This document shows, piece by piece, positions 2,137-45,946 of a stretch of DNA of 64,000 nt (position 1 is the stretch's first letter; every line of letters begins with the position of its first letter). The stretch covers positions 32,598 through 96,597 of IMG/VR virus record IMGVR_UViG_3300009430_000001, one strand, 5' to 3'. The position numbers and the translations under genes are program-made. A model generated the notes under the pieces. That model had not been told where the DNA came from. It did not search any database and was given only the letters and a program-made list of their open reading frames with translations. Source of the stretch: a virus.

Positions 2137-2817
2137 ATGAGTCGAGAGTATCACATCCGCGGCGGCGTGAAGGTGCTGAAGCTGCCGCCGCTGGAGCGCG
2201 TGCAGGAGCTGCTCTACGAGGACCCGGAGCAGCCTGGGGTGCTGCGGTGGCGGGTGAGCAGAGGCTGCCAGCCCGCCGGCTCCGTGGCGGGCGGCCTTAA
2301 TGGTGGTGGCCGTCGGCGGATCATGATTGATGGCGTTCTTTGTTACGCCTCGCGGTTGTTGTGGCTATTGCGCACGGGCGAGGATCCAGGGGCTGGGGTC
2401 ATTGATCATGAGGATCGTGCGAGAGATAATGATCGCTTTGAAAATCTGAGGCTTGCGCCGAATGGCCAGAGCTCTAATACCGCGCACAGTGGCAGGCAGA
2501 GCAATAATACAAGTGGCTATACGGGTGTGAGCTGGGACGATCGTTGTGGCAAGTGGCGCGTGAAACTTCAATACGAAAACAGGCGCATTCACTTGGGCTT
2601 TTTTCGCAACGTCAAAGATGCTTACGCTGTTTATCTTTGCGCAAAGTCAAAGTTTCACGGTGAAGAGTGGCTCGGCGAGCTTGCGCCTGGCTGGACACTC
2701 GAGCAAGCAAAGCAGCGCGTTATTGAAATGAAAAATGCTCGGTCCTGGGAGCTCCGGGATGAGATCTACAAGGCCGAGCGGCAGTTTGTCAAATGGTATA
2801 ACCGGCTAAAACTCTAG
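2137..2817 (+). CDS. HNH endonuclease with AP2 DNA-binding domain
   Basis: 226 residues. An HNH_3-type nuclease core lies at about 70-115 (VIDHEDRARDNDRFENLRL: the DH pair at 90-91, then Asn/Asp and an FENL motif), followed by an AP2/ERF-like DNA-binding domain at about 124-175 (NTSGYTGVSW...KWRVKL...LGFF...AYAVY). This is the usual architecture of free-standing phage HNH homing endonucleases that nick DNA and spread their own gene. It is the only plus-strand gene within a run of minus-strand genes, as expected of an insertion. A GGACCCG/CGGGTCC hairpin lies in its leader, and its TAG stop is directly followed by a copy of the 17-base motif. Confidence 0.88.
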   Translation: MSREYHIRGGVKVLKLPPLERVQELLYEDPEQPGVLRWRVSRGCQPAGSVAGGLNGGGRRRIMIDGVLCYASRLLWLLRTGEDPGAGVIDHEDRARDNDRFENLRLAPNGQSSNTAHSGRQSNNTSGYTGVSWDDRCGKWRVKLQYENRRIHLGFFRNVKDAYAVYLCAKSKFHGEEWLGELAPGWTLEQAKQRVIEMKNARSWELRDEIYKAERQFVKWYNRLKL

Positions 2818-3283: not shown

Positions 3284-4204
3284 TCAGAAGCCGGCGTCGT
3301 CAAGCACGGTGTCCGCGGTGGCATCCACGGTGGACAGCTGTTGTCCGGTGGTGTCGTAGTAAGCTTGCTCGCCTGCCACGGCAGCGGAACCAGCCGGCAT
3401 CAGGCCATAGCCCTGGAACGCACGCTTGATGCGCTTGACTGTTTCCAGCAGCTCTTCGATCGTGCTGGGTCCGTTGTACCAGCTGTTGTCGGAGAGCTTC
3501 ATCCAGCTTTTGCGATCAGGAGTGGGCACGGAGATCTCGAGGAATCGGGCGCGCTTGCCATTCCGCAGATCGATCCTGCACACGTCAAACAGCTGGCGGC
3601 TGTCGTCTTCCGACTGGCAGATCTCCGCCAGCGCGCCAAGGAAGCTGCGCACCGGGCCGGTGACGCCTGTGCTGCCATCGGGGCGATAGCTGACGGCATT
3701 GAAGTTCAGTTCGATGGCACGACCCTCGGTGTCGCTCATCAGGAAGCGCAGCCGATAGTTGAGCGCATAGGATGCATTCTCATCGGCGGGAGTCACCAGA
3801 AGAAGCATGTCCCGGGCAAATCCGATGATCTTGGATGTTCCGCTGTCTTCGTTGGTGGTTCCACCATCATCGGATACCGTGAAATTCACGGGCTTGTTTG
3901 CAGTCGCAGGTGTGACGGGCTGGAAAGGATTCTTGTACGCGCGGATCGGGGTGTGACCGACGACAGCTGCATCGTCCGGCGGCAGCTGGATCACCGCGGC
4001 TTCGGTCGGGGCCAGGGCGGAGGTCTCCTCGACTTGCTCGGCGACTTGCTCGGTGGCTTGCTCGACAGCTTGCTCAGCGACTTCGGGGATGCTCACGATC
4101 TCAGTTTGAACAGTGGTTTCAGTGGACGGCTCGAGCACTTCAGGGCTGAGTTTGGCGGGCTCGCGGGTACGGGTGGCGCGGGTACGGGTGGAATTCGTAG
4201 CCAT
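3284..4204 (-). CDS. hypothetical protein, 306 aa, coiled-coil N-terminus
   Basis: ATG 4204, MATNSTRTRATR. Residues about 1-65 are basic then Glu/Ala/Val-rich with near-heptad repeats of VAEQ/VEQ type, a probable short coiled coil or disordered arm. Residues about 90-280 form a globular domain (IGFARDMLLLVTP, RLRFLMSD, WMKLSDNSWY). The segment VRSFLGAL is shared with the protein at 5832-6545. It lies downstream of a hairpin leader and motif copy 2. Function unknown. Confidence 0.7.
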   Translation of the reverse strand: MATNSTRTRATRTREPAKLSPEVLEPSTETTVQTEIVSIPEVAEQAVEQATEQVAEQVEETSALAPTEAAVIQLPPDDAAVVGHTPIRAYKNPFQPVTPATANKPVNFTVSDDGGTTNEDSGTSKIIGFARDMLLLVTPADENASYALNYRLRFLMSDTEGRAIELNFNAVSYRPDGSTGVTGPVRSFLGALAEICQSEDDSRQLFDVCRIDLRNGKRARFLEISVPTPDRKSWMKLSDNSWYNGPSTIEELLETVKRIKRAFQGYGLMPAGSAAVAGEQAYYDTTGQQLSTVDATADTVLDDAGF

Positions 4205-4256
4205 TGGAAACAGATGAAGCAGATGAACGCGCTGCCTGTCACGCAGCACAAAGAAA

Positions 4257-4281
4257 AAAGGCCCCCGTGGAGGGAGCCTTT
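4257..4281 (-). terminator. GC-rich hairpin in leader/terminator position
   Basis: Minus strand: AAAGGCTCCC, TCCA loop, then GGGGGCCTTTTTT. The long T run makes this copy a convincing rho-independent terminator. It lies 52 bases before ATG 4204. Confidence 0.75.
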
Positions 4282-4301
4282 GAGTGGGAGGGAAAATCAA
4301 A

Positions 4302-4318
4302 ACTTAGACACAACGCGG
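4302..4318 (+). repeat. 17-base motif copy 2
   Basis: ACTTAGACACAACGCGG (C at the variable position), between the stop at 4329 and the hairpin at 4257-4281. Its plus orientation is antisense to the flanking genes. Confidence 0.8.
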
Positions 4319-4328
4319 AGCGCAGGTC

Positions 4329-4946
4329 TCAGTCTTTGAATCTGTAGTGGTATGGCTTGTAGTGACTGGGATACATCGCATTGATGGGCCCGAGACGTGC
4401 ATTCTGTGCCTCAAGCTGCTCGAGGTCACGGCATGCACGTTCCATGGCGCTGTCACTGTCGAGCTTGGCGAGTAGTGGCAAGCAGGGAATGTAGTGCGTT
4501 GCGCCTTGGAATTTCTTGTTGCCATGGCAAATGATCGTGATGCCGCTGGTCAGCGTGTGATAAGCGCCGGTGCGCATGATCAAGCCGCTAGGCATATGGA
4601 TCATGAACAGCGGTTTGCAGATGCGCGTATTGTGGCTGGCATCATCGGGAAAACCTTCAGGCTCAGGAAGCCGTGGGTCGTCATGTGCCACGAGCTCGAT
4701 GCGATAGTCGCGTTGAGCATTGAACTCATCGAGTGGATCGTAGAGATCGCCGCCCCAGCCGACAGCGATCTTGGTCATGTCGTTAGTGTCAAGCTGTTGC
4801 TTGAGGTCTTGCCGGCGATCTAGTTCGATCGCAATGCGACCGAGGAAGTCGCGGTGGTTGTTGGGGAGTCGGGGTTCGATGTAGCTGTTGAGCATGAACT
4901 GCTTGGTTTTCTTGTCGGTGATACGTGATCCACGGACGTTGTTCAC
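4329..4946 (-). CDS. hypothetical protein, 205 aa
   Basis: The start is GTG 4946, overlapping the upstream stop as GTGA and preceded by AGGAGG at ideal spacing; the open frame extends further upstream but inside the neighbouring gene. It encodes MNNVRGSRITDKKTKQFML with a mixed alpha/beta composition (GWGGDLYDPLDEF, RIELVAHDDPRLPEPEGFP). Translationally coupled to 4943-5491. No family recognised. Confidence 0.7.
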   Translation of the reverse strand: MNNVRGSRITDKKTKQFMLNSYIEPRLPNNHRDFLGRIAIELDRRQDLKQQLDTNDMTKIAVGWGGDLYDPLDEFNAQRDYRIELVAHDDPRLPEPEGFPDDASHNTRICKPLFMIHMPSGLIMRTGAYHTLTSGITIICHGNKKFQGATHYIPCLPLLAKLDSDSAMERACRDLEQLEAQNARLGPINAMYPSHYKPYHYRFKD

Positions 4947-5491
4947 GTTTCCTCCTGCTTCTTGCGGTCTTCGCTCTCTTGGTGCTTCCATGTGCCCCAC
5001 TTCTCGATGTACTCTGTGGCGGTTGGCACGCGCTTCAGCTTGTGCACTTTGCGCCACTGCTCTTCAGTGGTGTCATGGAACTTGGCAGGGCCGCTGATTT
5101 CGTAAAGCTCGAGATCGAGGGTATCTATGCCTGCTTGAATCATCTGCGTCCACGTATTTGTGGGAGTCCAGGCTTGATCGTCTTCGCTCAGGTTGCGTTG
5201 CTGTATCTTGAGCTCTTCGACGTAACCCGTGCGAAGCACGGCCAAGGCCGCTCGCATAATGACGTGAATAACTAGCGCTGGCTGATGTCTGCTGATGCAC
5301 TCACGATAGGTGAAGTTTGTATAATTAAGTTTGTTCTCACAGCGTCTGATTATCGTGATCAGCTCTTTCACTGTGATGATGTCGTGGCGCCAGGCCACGT
5401 GCAGCAGTGCGTTGGCAACGTCTTGGTGAAGCTCAAGCAAATTGTTGTGGGCTTTGCCGTTTTTTTCAATCAGTCGGTTGTAGATGCTCAT
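4943..5491 (-). CDS. hypothetical protein, 182 aa
   Basis: ATG 5491, MSIYNRLIEKNGKAHNN, with a purine-rich ribosome site (AGAGGC) before it. Helical throughout with a lysine- and glutamate-rich C-terminus. It ends in the AGGAGG that serves the next gene. Unknown function; first member of a two-gene coupled unit. Confidence 0.65.
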   Translation of the reverse strand: MSIYNRLIEKNGKAHNNLLELHQDVANALLHVAWRHDIITVKELITIIRRCENKLNYTNFTYRECISRHQPALVIHVIMRAALAVLRTGYVEELKIQQRNLSEDDQAWTPTNTWTQMIQAGIDTLDLELYEISGPAKFHDTTEEQWRKVHKLKRVPTATEYIEKWGTWKHQESEDRKKQEET

Positions 5492-5520
5492 GTTGCCTCT
5501 TGTGGTTGAAGTGAATCCAG

Positions 5521-5835
5521 TTATTGATTGGCAGGTTCTTGGAGGATGTCAAACAGGCTGGCCCAGCCTTCAACAGAACCGCCATGGTTATTAATTACCT
5601 CTTTGGCCCTGGAGTTGAGTGGATCTATTTGCTGAACCATGAGGAAGTTGATTCCAGTTTGAGCGATTGCTATTTGACGGGCGTATTCGCTTTTACTGCG
5701 TGACTTGCGCATGGCAAGACTTGTAACTGTTGCTAGTGTGCAATCGACAAGATAGACGAATGCATGCTCGGTCGTGGTAAATTTTTTGGTGCGAAAGATG
5801 TTTTGATCTTTCTCGGATTTGGTGGCTTTTTTCAT
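5521..5835 (-). CDS. hypothetical protein, 104 aa
   Basis: ATG 5835 overlaps the upstream stop as ATGA and is preceded by AGGAGG, which fixes the start (MKKATKSEKDQ). A basic N-terminus is followed by helices (EHAFVYLVDCTLATVTSLAM). Coupled to 5832-6545. No family recognised. Confidence 0.65.
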   Translation of the reverse strand: MKKATKSEKDQNIFRTKKFTTTEHAFVYLVDCTLATVTSLAMRKSRSKSEYARQIAIAQTGINFLMVQQIDPLNSRAKEVINNHGGSVEGWASLFDILQEPANQ

Positions 5836-6545
5836 GCTGCCTCCTGTAGTTGAATGAGTTTCTGGTCGAGTTGTCGTTTCCTGCTGCCGTGGGCGGGGAA
5901 CGCGATAATCACATGGGGTGGACGCTTCCAGCACAGGCGACAGCCGACACATTGCGGCGCACGTGGATCAGGTGCCAGCCTGGAGTGGGGGCACAGCACA
6001 GCGCGGTTGCCGCCGGCTGTGGTCCACGCCGTGCGCTTCTCGCCGGAAGGCACGATCAGGACGGCGTGCAAGCCGATCGCCACCGCGGCATCAGCCTGGG
6101 CCTCGAGCTCGAAGCTGAGGTTGATCGTGATCCGATGGCCCAGCAGCGCATCGAGGTGCGCCGGCTCATGTCGCCACTCCCGCCTGTGGGAGTACATGAA
6201 GGCGGGGCGCTTGCCCACGGCTGCGGACAGGGCGCCGAGGAAGCTGCGCACCTGGCCTGGCGTCTCCCCGGGGACGTCCCCTGCGACACCATATCGCAAT
6301 GGTGTTGTGGGCGGAAGACGAAAACGGACCCAGTCGATCATTTGGTCGAACTGCATCACGTCTTTGCCGATGCCGGCGCTGTAGTTGTCCCAGTGCCATG
6401 CCATGTAGCCCTGGTCGTGATAGCAGGTGCCATCATTCAATGGACAATCGCTGGGGCATGTGTTGCGGCTGGCGGTGATGGCAGCGATTGGGCCCAGCTT
6501 GTCGTTGTTGGTGGGGTACTTGCAGTGGAAGAAGTATTTGGTCAT
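5832..6545 (-). CDS. Cys-rich phage protein with CPxxCPL motif (DUF7227-like)
   Basis: 237 residues from ATG 6545. The segment NTCPSDCPLNDGTCY at about 28-42, followed by a Trp-rich stretch (YMAWHWDNY), resembles the TCPxxCPLxxxxCY signature of a conserved phage family of unknown function. Further Cys pairs near the C-terminus (APQCVGCRLCW) suggest bound metal or an iron-sulfur cluster. It shares the peptide VRSFLGAL with the protein at 3284-4204. Family assignment is from memory of the motif. Confidence 0.7.
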   Translation of the reverse strand: MTKYFFHCKYPTNNDKLGPIAAITASRNTCPSDCPLNDGTCYHDQGYMAWHWDNYSAGIGKDVMQFDQMIDWVRFRLPPTTPLRYGVAGDVPGETPGQVRSFLGALSAAVGKRPAFMYSHRREWRHEPAHLDALLGHRITINLSFELEAQADAAVAIGLHAVLIVPSGEKRTAWTTAGGNRAVLCPHSRLAPDPRAPQCVGCRLCWKRPPHVIIAFPAHGSRKRQLDQKLIQLQEAA

Positions 6546-6552
6546 GGTTTGA

Positions 6553-6786
6553 TCAGTATTCACCAGGAAACAGCACAATCTCGACTGGATAGCGGATCTC
6601 GCCTTTGTCATTGATCTCCACATCGTAGGGATCGCCAACGACGAATTCGCTTGGCTTGAGTCCAGCTCGAAAGAGCTTCTGCTCAACATCACGCATGATG
6701 CTGTGCCAGTCGGGTTCGGGATTCCAGTATTCCGGCGGCTCACTTGGTCGTGGGTCGCGGAACTGGCGGGGGTCGGTGGTAGCCAT
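6553..6786 (-). CDS. small acidic hypothetical protein, 77 aa
   Basis: ATG 6786. A Pro/Glu-rich N-terminus (SEPPEYWNPEPDWH) is followed by a short alpha/beta domain. Seven bases separate its stop from the next ATG, so it is likely cotranscribed with 5832-6545. No recognised domain. Confidence 0.6.
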   Translation of the reverse strand: MATTDPRQFRDPRPSEPPEYWNPEPDWHSIMRDVEQKLFRAGLKPSEFVVGDPYDVEINDKGEIRYPVEIVLFPGEY

Positions 6787-42443: not shown

Positions 42444-43246
42444 TGGCGGACTTACTCGCGCGTTACCGGCAGCTCCTGCAGAACCCGAACGTTCGCCGGA
42501 CGCTGGACACGATCAGCTACGCGGAGGGCACCTCGGGCCCCGAGGGCTACCGCACGATGTTCGGTGGCGGCAAGTTCGACACTTCCGGCGGCTGGCGGCA
42601 CCCGGATCGAGTGGTGCACGGCGGCGGTTACAGCAGCGCCGCAGCCGGCAAGTATCAGTTCATGCCCGACACCTGGACCGGTGTCTCGCAACGTCTGGGC
42701 CTGAAGGACTTCAGCCCCGAAAGCCAGGATCTCGGCGCGCTGGCCAAGATCGAGGAGCGCGGCGTCAACCTCGAGGAGATCGCCAAGGGCGGCCTGAAGG
42801 CGGGCCACATCCACAAGCTGGCGCCGGAGTGGGCGTCATTGCCGACCGCCCAGGGCAAGAGCTACTACGGCCAGCCAGTGAAGGGGCTCGGTGAGCTCCA
42901 GAAGGTCTACGGCGGCCAGATCGGCGCCGGTGGTGGAGGCGGCAGCACTGCGAGCTCCGGTGGCGGCACGAGCAGCGGCAGCAGCAGCGGCACGAGCAGC
43001 AGCAGTAGCGGCGCGAGCGGTGGTGACGGCATCATCCAGCCGGAGCCGATCACGCCGCCCAAGCCGATCACGCCGGCCGCCATCCAGACGCCTGGTGCGA
43101 CGCTGATCAAGCCCGCCGCTTCGTTCGGCGTCGGGCCCAATGCCTGGGAGGGCGCGGGCGGCCAGGACGCCACGCCGTCGGGCAATCGCCTTGCCGGCTC
43201 GCGCTCGATCGTGCGCCAGCTGATGCAGATGCTCATGGGCGCCTGA
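42443..43246 (+). CDS. lambda-R-like lysozyme / transglycosylase (GH104-like), 267 aa
   Basis: Catalytic domain at about 1-150: SYAEGT (probable catalytic E28), a GAGRYQ-like AAAGKYQF at 67-74, and GLKDFSPESQDLGALAKIEERG at 86-107, all matching lambda endolysin R, which has LGLKDFSPKSQDAVAL and catalytic E19. Then a Gly/Ser/Thr-rich linker (about 159-190) and a Pro-rich C-terminus. The long flexible tail and position between virion genes suggest a virion-associated muralytic enzyme rather than a free endolysin, though either is possible. It overlaps 43233-44078 by 14 bases. Confidence 0.8.
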   Translation: MADLLARYRQLLQNPNVRRTLDTISYAEGTSGPEGYRTMFGGGKFDTSGGWRHPDRVVHGGGYSSAAAGKYQFMPDTWTGVSQRLGLKDFSPESQDLGALAKIEERGVNLEEIAKGGLKAGHIHKLAPEWASLPTAQGKSYYGQPVKGLGELQKVYGGQIGAGGGGGSTASSGGGTSSGSSSGTSSSSSGASGGDGIIQPEPITPPKPITPAAIQTPGATLIKPAASFGVGPNAWEGAGGQDATPSGNRLAGSRSIVRQLMQMLMGA

Positions 43247-44078
43247 GTGGGATCGCCGGCGGCTCGAGCACCCGGGCCGTCCGTTCGCTGGCGATCAGCG
43301 GCGGCTCCTCCAGCCAGGCATCCGGATCTAGCTGGGGCACCACATGGCTCCGGCGCATCCGGCGCTCCTCCACCGGCGGCGGACCGGGCGGCGCGGTCCA
43401 GCCCGGGTCTTCATCGGTGATCCTCACCATCTCTTCGGTGTGGAACTGATCCCGCAAGCAGCGGGCCTGCGCCATCCACGTGTGGCTGATGGCGCGGATC
43501 AGCTTCGCCACGTCCTTTGGGCTGTAGCGGATCATTGGCCGTTCCTGGGCGCTGGGGCTGTGGCCGATGCGGCCGGTTGCTCCAGTGAGCGTGTAGATCC
43601 AGTCATGCACCAGCTGCGCGGATTCCCACGAGTAGCGATGCAGGTGCAGATGGCCGATCAATCCTCGTGATCGCTTCGACGGGAAGATGCGGCCGCGATC
43701 GGCCCACAGCGCACCGATGCCTTCAGCGCCGATCAATTCCAGCGCGCTGCTCGTGATTTGAAAGTTGCCCTCGGGGTACAGCAGCTTGTAGGCCGTCTCG
43801 AACCACTTGCTGCCCACGCGGATCCGCCAGTTCCCGGCTCCGGGCCTGGATTCTGGGTTGTAGCTGCCGACGAAGCTGGGCTCTGGCGCCTTCGGCATGA
43901 ACTGCTTCAGGCGCTTCCACTGGTAGAGCGCGTACTCCTCGTGCTCGAACGGGTGGTGGATGATCAGGCTGTAGGAGTTCCCGGGCCGGCCGAGCAGCCC
44001 ACGACCCAGGCAGTAGCCGATCACCAGGCGCGTCAGGGCCGCGGATTCTTCCCAGCTGAGCCTGGCAGGTGCGGGCAT
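43233..44078 (-). CDS. LAGLIDADG-like protein with both catalytic acidic residues replaced
   Basis: 281 residues, the only minus-strand gene of the late region, lying between lysozyme and the intron-containing capsid gene. VIGYCLGRGLL at 19-29 and IGALWADRGRI at 121-131 align with two LAGLIDADG helices; around them are the family's usual companions (EYALYQWKRLKQFM at 48-61, LLYPEGNFQI at 99-108, YSWESAQLVHDWIYTL at 149-164). At the catalytic Asp positions both helices read R-G, so DNA cleavage is doubtful and an RNA-maturase role for the nearby introns is an option. Pro-rich C-terminus. Confidence 0.7.
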   Translation of the reverse strand: MPAPARLSWEESAALTRLVIGYCLGRGLLGRPGNSYSLIIHHPFEHEEYALYQWKRLKQFMPKAPEPSFVGSYNPESRPGAGNWRIRVGSKWFETAYKLLYPEGNFQITSSALELIGAEGIGALWADRGRIFPSKRSRGLIGHLHLHRYSWESAQLVHDWIYTLTGATGRIGHSPSAQERPMIRYSPKDVAKLIRAISHTWMAQARCLRDQFHTEEMVRITDEDPGWTAPPGPPPVEERRMRRSHVVPQLDPDAWLEEPPLIASERTARVLEPPAIPLRRP

Positions 44079-44142: not shown

Positions 44143-45946
44143 ATGGAAGACCTGCACTTCGGTGCAGGGCACCTCGACAAGGGAAGCCGGTTTCGGCAGC
44201 AGACCCTCCGCAGCAATGCGCTGTCGGAGCTCGCGCTCTTGCGCAAGCGGAACGTGTCGTTTACTCATGGAGGTCCACACGTGTGGATTGATTCCGATAA
44301 ATGGATTGTCGCCCGCATCGGTAACGGTGCGGTGAAAACCGGGTGAATTCGGGGAAACCCAAACGTTAAGTCGTGGGCAATCCCGAGCCAAGCCAGCAAA
44401 GCGTTGCTGGAAGGTGTAGAGACTACGCGGTGGAAGACGCTTCTTCCGTAATACGCGATCAGCGCCCGGCATCCCACTGGGATGAAGATATAGTCCGTGC
44501 TGCGCGAAAGCGTAGAATTTCACGTTTCCAAAGATCCTGGGTGCGGAACTCTATCGTCCGCATCCCAGTTACATCTCCGAGCTCGCAATCGAGCCAGTTG
44601 TTGTACACGATTATTCCAGAATGCCGGGTCAAACGGTACAACTGGACCGGTACAATTACTGGGGGAATCCTGGAACGAAAGAGTCCAGAGAGCGTACTCC
44701 GGATCAAACAATCGGCACGGCTTCCGGCCGCAACATCACCAAGCAAAAGGTCTTGGTGACGTTGAAGGAATACTCGGGGCCTGCAGATCCGAACGATCCG
44801 TCACAGCCGAGCACGTTCAAAGTTTCAAGGCAAAACCTCATGACCGCGCAGCGATTGCTGCTCGACACGGGTAACCTGGGCGTGTTTCATCAGTCGATCG
44901 GCAGCCTCACGCTGCTCGATGACTACCGACGCTGGCGCGATCGCGTCTTTCTCAACGAATTGTACAAGTGCTACGCACGCGGCAAGGCGGATGAGGAGCG
45001 CGGTGGCTACTACTTCCCCGGCAAGCTGAGCGAAGCTGAGCTCGCCGCTCCTGGATACAACGTGTCCACCGCCGGAACGGCTGATTCGGCGAAGTTCTCC
45101 GTCAAGGAGGACCTGCTGACGGTCGTCACCGACATGCGTACCCGGAACGTGCCCACGTTCCAGGATGGGTACTACCGGTGCATCTGCGATCCGAACGCAA
45201 TGAAGCACCTCCGCCAGGACAGCGACTTTCGCGAGATCGCTCGCTACCCCGGCAACGGCATGATCAATCCGATGATGCCGATGATGCAGCCCAATGCCAT
45301 CAACTACCTCGGCAATGGGCCTGCTTACGGTCAAGCCGGCTTTGTCGCCGGTGCGCCGACCATGCCTGAACAACCACGGGCCCTCGCGGCGTGAGTCGCG
45401 TTGCAAACGGGGTGAATTGCTGGAACGCCTCCACCAATTGGCGAATCAGCAGCCAAGCCGGATCACAGTCCGGAAGGTTCAACGACTAGGTCCCGAGTGG
45501 CAACACGGTAATGGACCCACGAGTGCCCCGCTACTTGCTATGCTTTTATTCGCGAGTAGGTGAGATAGTCTGACCACGCCGGATGGGAAACGGCGTGAAC
45601 TGGAGGATAAAGAGCCTCCAGGGTAACACAGGTGAGTGGCTTCCTCTTCGAGGGCGTTCGCTGGTTCGAGTCCACCAACATCGCCTCGCACACCTACAAC
45701 GTGGCGATCCAGGGTGCCAAGGGTTTCACTGGCAATACCGCCAAACAGAACCCTGCCGCACTGATGATGTTTTTTGGACCACAAAGTATCGGGATCGGCA
45801 TCGGTGGCAATAACGCTCAAGTGGCCCTGAATTCAAATGACGATTTCTCAAGATTCGTGATTTTGATATGGCTACTCTACGCAGGTTGGGAGGTTTTGAA
45901 TATGGATTTTGTGACAATCGCTCACAGTTTCCTATACTCCATCTGA
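44143..45946 (+). CDS. putative major capsid protein, split by two group I introns
   Basis: Three exons: 44143-44298, 44534-45367 and 45632-45946. Removing the introns gives one open frame of 434 residues. Exon 1 begins MEDLHFGAGHLDKGS and ends HVWIDSD; exon 2 begins ILGAELYRPHPSYIS and ends GAPTMP; exon 3 begins VSGFLFEGVRWFES. The joins are phase 0 with no gaps. Position after scaffold and before a probable decoration protein, and size, fit the major capsid protein; I do not see a fold signature, so the name rests on context. Without splicing, exon 1 stops after 67 codons. Confidence 0.75.
44299..44533 (+). ncRNA. group I intron 1 (no ORF), 235 bases
   Basis: Core elements are readable: P at 44346-44360 (AATTCGGGGAAACCC), Q at 44375-44394 (GGGCAATCCCGAGCC then AAGCC), R at 44409-44430 with GACTA, S at 44485-44496 (AAGATATAGTCC), and a CUGCGC-GAAA-GCGUAG P9 stem at 44500-44515. 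P1 is CGAUAA/UUGUCG closing AUGGA, with the required U-G pair at the 5' splice site after 44298. P10 is 3'-exon AUCC with GGAU of the guide, giving the 3' site after G44533. Length leaves the correct frame. The core resembles the IC3 (tRNA-Leu) class. Confidence 0.88.
45368..45631 (+). ncRNA. group I intron 2 (no ORF), 264 bases
   Basis: P at about 45413-45429 (TGAATTGCTGGAACGCC), Q at 45440-45459 (GGCGAATCAGCAGCC then AAGCC), R at 45472-45490 (GGTTCAACGACTAGG), S at 45562-45573 (GAGATAGTCTGA). P9-type stems at 45575-45597 (CACGCCG/CGGCGTG) and 45600-45621 (CTGGAGG/CCTCCAG). P1 is GCCU/GGGC with the U-G pair at the 5' site after 45367; P10 pairs GUG of exon 3 with CAC. Length is a multiple of three and both ends restore the frame. 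Peripheral stems differ from intron 1, so the two look independently acquired. Confidence 0.85.

Follow-up and report, generated by a model that had tools for sequence, protein, structure and literature searches.

Two predicted group I introns in the major capsid protein gene of an uncultured S-EIV1-like phage

We asked how a full-length capsid protein could be made from a gene whose reading frame is broken in two places. The gene lies in a 64,000-nt stretch of viral DNA (the window, by which we mean the whole stretch analysed) that forms part of a 96.6-kb virus record. The reading we favour, with a probability of about 93%, is that two predicted group I introns in the major capsid protein (MCP) gene of an S-EIV1-like phage excise themselves from its mRNA, which then encodes a capsid protein of 390 aa, and that these introns were acquired separately and are probably passengers.

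The capsid gene and its exon boundaries

The interrupted protein matches PHROG 1357 ('major head protein', E 4.9e-17), and the same match was found in 21 of 21 relatives, in line with the putative capsid function proposed in an earlier note on this DNA. The protein had no Pfam match. An AlphaFold prediction for the MCP family was too poor (pLDDT 43) to show an HK97 fold and was left unused, and comparison of an MCP alignment profile with solved structures gave nothing convincing, with no relative among the solved sequences. The single MCP relative in the phage collection is that of Synechococcus phage S-EIV1 (KJ410740), which is 62.5% identical and has the same start context; judged from its sequence, the source virus is thus an uncultured S-EIV1-like phage, a relative of a Synechococcus phage. 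A scan of IMG/VR confirmed at least 570 further relatives, of which 80 were kept. As a side observation, the S-EIV1 MCP gene itself (KJ410740.1, 9019-10170), whose start is probably GTG, is misannotated: AHV82227 on the opposite strand covers its front and AHV82228 only its end.

To place the exon boundaries, every position near each junction was tried without any splice-site rule and scored against six homologues. The optimal joins were 44298/44525 and 45367/45635, and a spliced-alignment program run with three references returned identical joins. In this rule-free search a T precedes the 5' end of both introns and a G is their last base; for intron 2 a join one base earlier scores equally, and the T/G rule breaks the tie. 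The resulting features are as follows (all on the + strand).

44269..44273, Shine-Dalgarno sequence GGAGG, 7 nt 5' of GTG 44281 (sequence reading)
44281..44298, exon 1, GTG TGG ATT GAT TCC GAT (VWIDSD), 6 codons (start codon from the alignment of homologues)
44299..44524, intron 1, 226 nt, group I with P7.1/P7.2 (IA-like), ORF-less, terminal G44524 (RF00028, boundary search, covariation)
44344..44346, in-frame TGA for a ribosome running into intron 1
44525..45367, exon 2, FPKILGAEL...GAPTMP, 281 codons (DFPK[LI]LGAELY and MP[TS]G uninterrupted in intronless relatives)
45368..45634, intron 2, 267 nt, group I with P7.1 and P9.1 (IA-like), ORF-less, terminal G45634 (RF00028, boundary search)
45392..45394, in-frame TGA for a ribosome running into intron 2
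45635..45946, exon 3, SGFLFEGV...FLYSI, 103 codons plus the stop TGA 45944-45946 (MP[TS]GF.FEGV in homologues)

Excision of both blocks restores a single reading frame, in which VWIDSD is joined to FPKILG and TMP to SGFLF; in intronless relatives the corresponding motifs read through both junctions unbroken. We place the start at GTG 44281 because ATG, TTG or GTG stands at the matching codon in all 77 intronless relatives that align as far as the first residue. Purine-rich sites like GGAGG also lie 5' of the start codon in the relatives displayed. The gene therefore runs from GTG 44281 to TGA 45944-45946 and its predicted spliced product has 390 aa. The earlier note had recognised the restored frame and both 5' sites (44298 and 45367) correctly. 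Its start at ATG 44143 is ruled out by the homologues, and its 3' ends (44533 and 45631) are ruled out by homology as well: the ends are G44524, 9 nt away, and G45634, 3 nt away, so that the introns measure 226 and 267 nt instead of 235 and 264 nt and the frame counts 390 codons, not 434.

The predicted introns, their splicing and the neighbouring LAGLIDADG gene

The assignment to group I was made with the Rfam covariance model RF00028 (Intron_gpI, gathering score 50 bits). Intron 1 was matched at 44289-44516 with 72.8 bits (E 1.5e-16), and intron 2 at 45313-45597 with 50.5 bits (E 7e-10), barely above the cut-off and with its P1 wrongly placed; nothing else in the 64,000-nt window exceeded the Rfam cut-offs. 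The main pairings, again on the + strand, are listed below.

44295..44311, intron 1 P1, CGAU 44295-44298 with GUCG 44308-44311, U-G at the 5' splice site (pairing check)
44302..44305 and 44527..44530, intron 1 P10, UGGA with UCCA (exon half by pairing check, guide half by hand)
44421..44495, intron 1 P7, GACUA 44421-44425 with UAGUC 44491-44495 (pairing check)
44497..44499 and 44521..44523, intron 1 P9.0, GUG with CAC, adjoining terminal G44524 (hand reading)
45364..45381, intron 2 P1, GCCU 45364-45367 with GGGC 45378-45381, U-G at the 5' splice site (pairing check)
45374..45377 and 45636..45639, intron 2 P10, CCAC with GUGG (partners by hand)
45484..45570, intron 2 P7, GACUA 45484-45488 with UAGUC 45566-45570 (pairing check)
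45573..45575 and 45631..45633, intron 2 P9.0, ACC with GGU, adjoining terminal G45634 (partners by hand)

In both introns P1 with its U-G pair, P2, P3, P4, P5, P6a, P7, P7.1, P8, P9, P9.0 and P10 can be drawn, the P9.0 and P10 pairings partly by hand. P1 is just 4 bp long in either intron, and P10 is of about the same length. The two differ in that P7.2 is present in intron 1 only (a P7.2 pairing tried for intron 2 did not hold) and P9.1 in intron 2. Both appear IA-like, an assignment taken from the P7.1/P7.2 stems. The ORF list contains no ORF of note within either intron, and no homing endonuclease ORF of their own. Thus the group I nature of the two blocks, the readable core with its U-G pair, P10 and P9 stems, and the lack of ORFs, all proposed in the earlier note, agree with the Rfam run, the pairing check, the hand reading and the ORF list.

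The fold of intron 1 was compared within its lineage (an alignment of 10 introns; see below for the lineage). There, 97.9% of the pair cells are standard, and both sides have changed in 20 of 42 pairs, as against 12.7 in shuffles (0 of 500 shuffles reached this) and at most 7 in slid controls. The covariation score is 0.426 versus 0.132 in shuffles and collapses when the alignment is slid. P7.1 and P7.2 covary within the lineage, and P7 is invariant in all ten. The folding energy of intron 1 is better than that of 200 of 200 shuffles (z -3.5), and that of intron 2, which is close to the shuffles, better than 191 of 200 (z -1.9). Two contigs of the same species from other metagenomes (L001 and L002, 99.85% identical) carry both introns with zero differences, which means that the introns are not assembly errors. 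On these sequence grounds, the MCP gene is interrupted twice by predicted ORF-less group I introns.

How would the protein then be made? Introns 1 and 2 would leave the mRNA via two guanosine-initiated transesterifications. We infer that both are spliced and, from what is known of group I introns in phages, that splicing would be autocatalytic, with no protein needed. Ribosomes on unspliced RNA would halt at TGA 44344 or TGA 45392, ahead of most of the catalytic core. Because these in-frame stops lie early in the introns, full-length MCP depends on splicing, as the earlier note had argued. Early in-frame stops have been described for many group I introns in protein genes (PMC3984707).

The two introns might instead be degenerate and no longer splice, in which case the gene would be broken or its pieces translated separately, for example from ATG 44621 or GTG 45632. 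This would fit with the bare margin by which intron 2 passes the Rfam cut-off and with the exon pieces being ORFs of their own. However, the exon frames are intact, every core stem is complete, P7 included, both introns are identical in the two further metagenome contigs, and the homologues form one continuous protein over both junctions and do not begin at 44621 as a separate gene, as the earlier note had considered; we therefore regard loss of splicing as very improbable. Even less credible is a spliced product with the earlier sites (44298/44534 and 45367/45632, start at 44143), that is, a longer protein that lacks FPK and has gained a V. With these sites, too, the frame is preserved and a G precedes either 3' site, but all 77 aligned homologues have DFPK, have MP[TS]G without an extra residue and start at the codon of GTG 44281, other boundaries score best, and P9.0 adjoins G44524 and G45634.

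Can a protein acting in trans be involved? The candidate would be the following gene, which lies outside the introns about 200 nt from the MCP start.

43233..44078, - strand, divergent gene, 281 aa, LAGLIDADG fold, both catalytic Asp replaced (LGRG, WADRG)

Its match to Pfam LAGLIDADG_2 reached 21.5 bits, below the cut-off of 25, and its predicted structure (pLDDT 81.8) had I-SceI as the top match (E 4.5e-9), with the bI3 maturase and WhiA lower. A splicing maturase at this place would be in keeping with the fold, with the bI3 maturase among the structure matches and with the short distance to the MCP gene, and the missing catalytic residues are compatible with it, as maturase action need not vanish with the loss of LAGLIDADG nuclease residues. 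On the other hand, the closest intronless relatives retain a homologue of this gene in the same place, and the freestanding gene is not enriched at intron-bearing MCP genes (3 of 37, versus 20 of 107; P 0.19). Its presence beside intronless MCP genes and the lack of enrichment speak against a dedicated maturase, and we consider the need for one unlikely and retain self-splicing of both introns as our reading.

What else could such proteins do at the capsid locus? Single-copy homologues were found in the intronless relatives L006, L007, L008 and L392, and two tandem LAGLIDADG_2 homologues lie on the opposite strand upstream of an intronless MCP in L018, L024, L044, L049, L055, L068, L070 and others. 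In the tandem pairs of many marine relatives the MCP-proximal copy has the first Asp and lacks the second, and the distal copy lacks both; the intron-encoded LAGLIDADG_2 proteins retain both Asp wherever both motifs are readable. The pN/pS of the freestanding gene (0.34-0.76) is consistent with purifying selection. WhiA is a LAGLIDADG-derived transcription factor. We tentatively suggest, as a minority possibility, that these are former homing endonucleases without intact catalytic sites, now resident at the capsid locus, where they would regulate the capsid promoter or mask homing sites. If they cover homing sites, this would amount to resistance to intron invasion. Elsewhere in the window (2137-2817, + strand) we noted an HNH_3 protein of 226 aa that also matches AP2 weakly and resembles a freestanding phage HNH endonuclease.

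Introns in the capsid genes of the clade and the origins of introns 1 and 2

Pattern scans for group I cores gave about 240 loci, of which about 40 hold introns in the S-EIV1-like MCP family. In the first scan, whose patterns called for an intact start region or a motif close by, only one intron-bearing locus besides the window's species was present among the 80 relatives kept. When loci were selected by a stretch of exon 2 and not by introns, 17 of 70 evaluable MCP genes contained introns; this sample includes near-copies and a few unclear calls, and 'about a quarter' is a rough figure. Nearly every Rfam match in the intron-bearing records falls within the MCP gene, and this holds also for records that span 59 to 78 kb. 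For 8 of the 40 records the matches are below the cut-off only, at least partly because an endonuclease gene splits the core. The MCP gene of the S-EIV1-like clade thus appears to be a recurrent target of group I introns.

Spliced alignment placed these introns at no fewer than 15 sites, which in window residues are 5, 7, 18, 31, 36/37, 49, 54, 86-89, 133, 145, 220, 237, 243, 288 and 358 (sites 36/37 and 86/88/89 may each be a single site smeared by the alignment). Calls in L410, L421 and L463 are ambiguous, and the very long site-5 introns of L207 and L228 look artefactual, owing to a four-codon first exon, and were omitted in that form from the tree described below. The highest count was found in L183 (3660-5882), whose MCP gene is interrupted by six introns that each give a separate Rfam match above the cut-off; the spliced MCP of L183 has no stop and is identical to that of an intronless relative at 367 of 382 positions. 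At least five introns interrupt the MCP gene of L210 (about 3440 to 6700), two of them carrying LAGLIDADG_2 and LAGLIDADG_3 genes. An HNH-like ORF was also seen there on the minus strand, directly upstream of the MCP gene. Outside the S-EIV1-like MCP family, two close group I core matches were observed in each of the phage contigs L174, L284, L349, L198 and L186.

We then asked where introns 1 and 2 came from. A tree of 57 intron cores, built on 132 short columns and with several long branches that meet, groups the introns by insertion site (16 changes versus 35.4 in shuffles), and the introns of one gene do not cluster together. Intron 1 falls in a set with 17 site-5 introns (support 100/97), its nearest relative being that of L281 (88% of core columns), and the partner of intron 2 is the L324 intron at site 288 (support 100/98). 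Introns 1 and 2 are separate lineages, as the earlier note had supposed from their peripheral stems. The exact site of intron 2 is shared by the introns of L209, L230, L302 and L324, two of which carry LAGLIDADG endonuclease genes. Intron 1 lies at site 7, two codons (6 nt) downstream of its site-5 lineage and occupied in the window's species only. When insertions behind the sixth codon were sought by pattern, L001 and L002 were the only MCP loci to come up, so that the exact site of intron 1 is unique among the loci seen; a scan for GAATTCGGGGAAACCC likewise returned MCP genes only in L001 and L002.

Between introns 1 and 2 and the introns nearest to them identity is 82-83%, versus about 62-70% for the DNA of exon 2, and L006-L008, the nearest relatives among the matches listed, lack both introns. 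Because of this higher identity and these intronless relatives, the two introns seem to have arrived separately and laterally. Sister introns carry endonuclease genes of the LAGLIDADG_2 (sites 36, 49 and 8x), LAGLIDADG_3 (sites 145 and 288) and HNH_3 (site 5) types, and introns 1 and 2 are probably ORF-less descendants of mobile ancestors, or passengers. Intron 2 would derive from the lineage that carries a LAGLIDADG_3 gene at the same site elsewhere (no LAGLIDADG_3 gene was found in the window's own genome), and intron 1 from the lineage two codons upstream, some members of which have an HNH gene. Both the site of intron 1 and site 5 end in GAU, which can pair with the guide GUCG, making reverse splicing to the second GAU a possible route for the 6-nt shift.

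Significance and comparison with known systems

The major capsid gene is among the most highly expressed phage genes, and each intron in it must therefore splice well. The clade offers a natural series for intron arrival, endonuclease loss and movement: its MCP genes contain from none to six introns, spread over at least 15 sites, one and the same site can hold introns with and without an endonuclease gene, and one lineage occupies two sites that lie 6 nt from each other. In this aquatic family, MCP genes are also easily overlooked or fragmented in annotation and in capsid-based surveys. In the literature searched, which included few subscription journals, we did not find the clade-wide pattern, a six-intron MCP gene or resident non-catalytic LAGLIDADG proteins.

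Finally, we compared the gene with known cases. The earlier note had called two introns in one capsid gene unusual, a view that is not supported: MCP introns are common in the clade, and multi-intron phage MCP genes are already known, to which the window gene adds another case. The MCP gene of a crAss-like Zeta-group phage (cMAG OLRF01000054) has four intervening segments, three of them with domains typical of group I (PMC7886860). Like the window gene, it is a phage MCP gene known from a metagenome and interrupted by several segments, but it belongs to another phage order and has other introns, whereas the window introns have no endonuclease gene, and in the S-EIV1-like clade a single MCP gene can hold six introns and the sites are mapped clade-wide. 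S-EIV1 itself has no group I intron in its whole record. In mycobacteriophage LittleE splicing of one capsid intron was proven by RT-PCR and protein sequencing (PMC3706429). That intron resembles ours in interrupting the major capsid gene, in following a U and in ending in G; it differs in that it stands alone, is about 0.8 kb long and carries a homing endonuclease gene, in contrast to the two ORF-less introns here (226 and 267 nt). The tail-gene intron of mycobacteriophage BAKA, for which splicing was also shown (PMC3706429), is similarly small (265 nt) and without an endonuclease gene, but it is the only intron in its gene. Several group I introns per phage gene, with splicing shown for several, are known as well from the polymerase and terminase genes of Bastillevirinae, with two or three introns, and from Twort, with three in one gene (PMC11878797 and references therein). 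The Bastillevirinae introns, for which exon skipping has been seen, differ from those of the window in that they interrupt replication and packaging genes and not the capsid gene.
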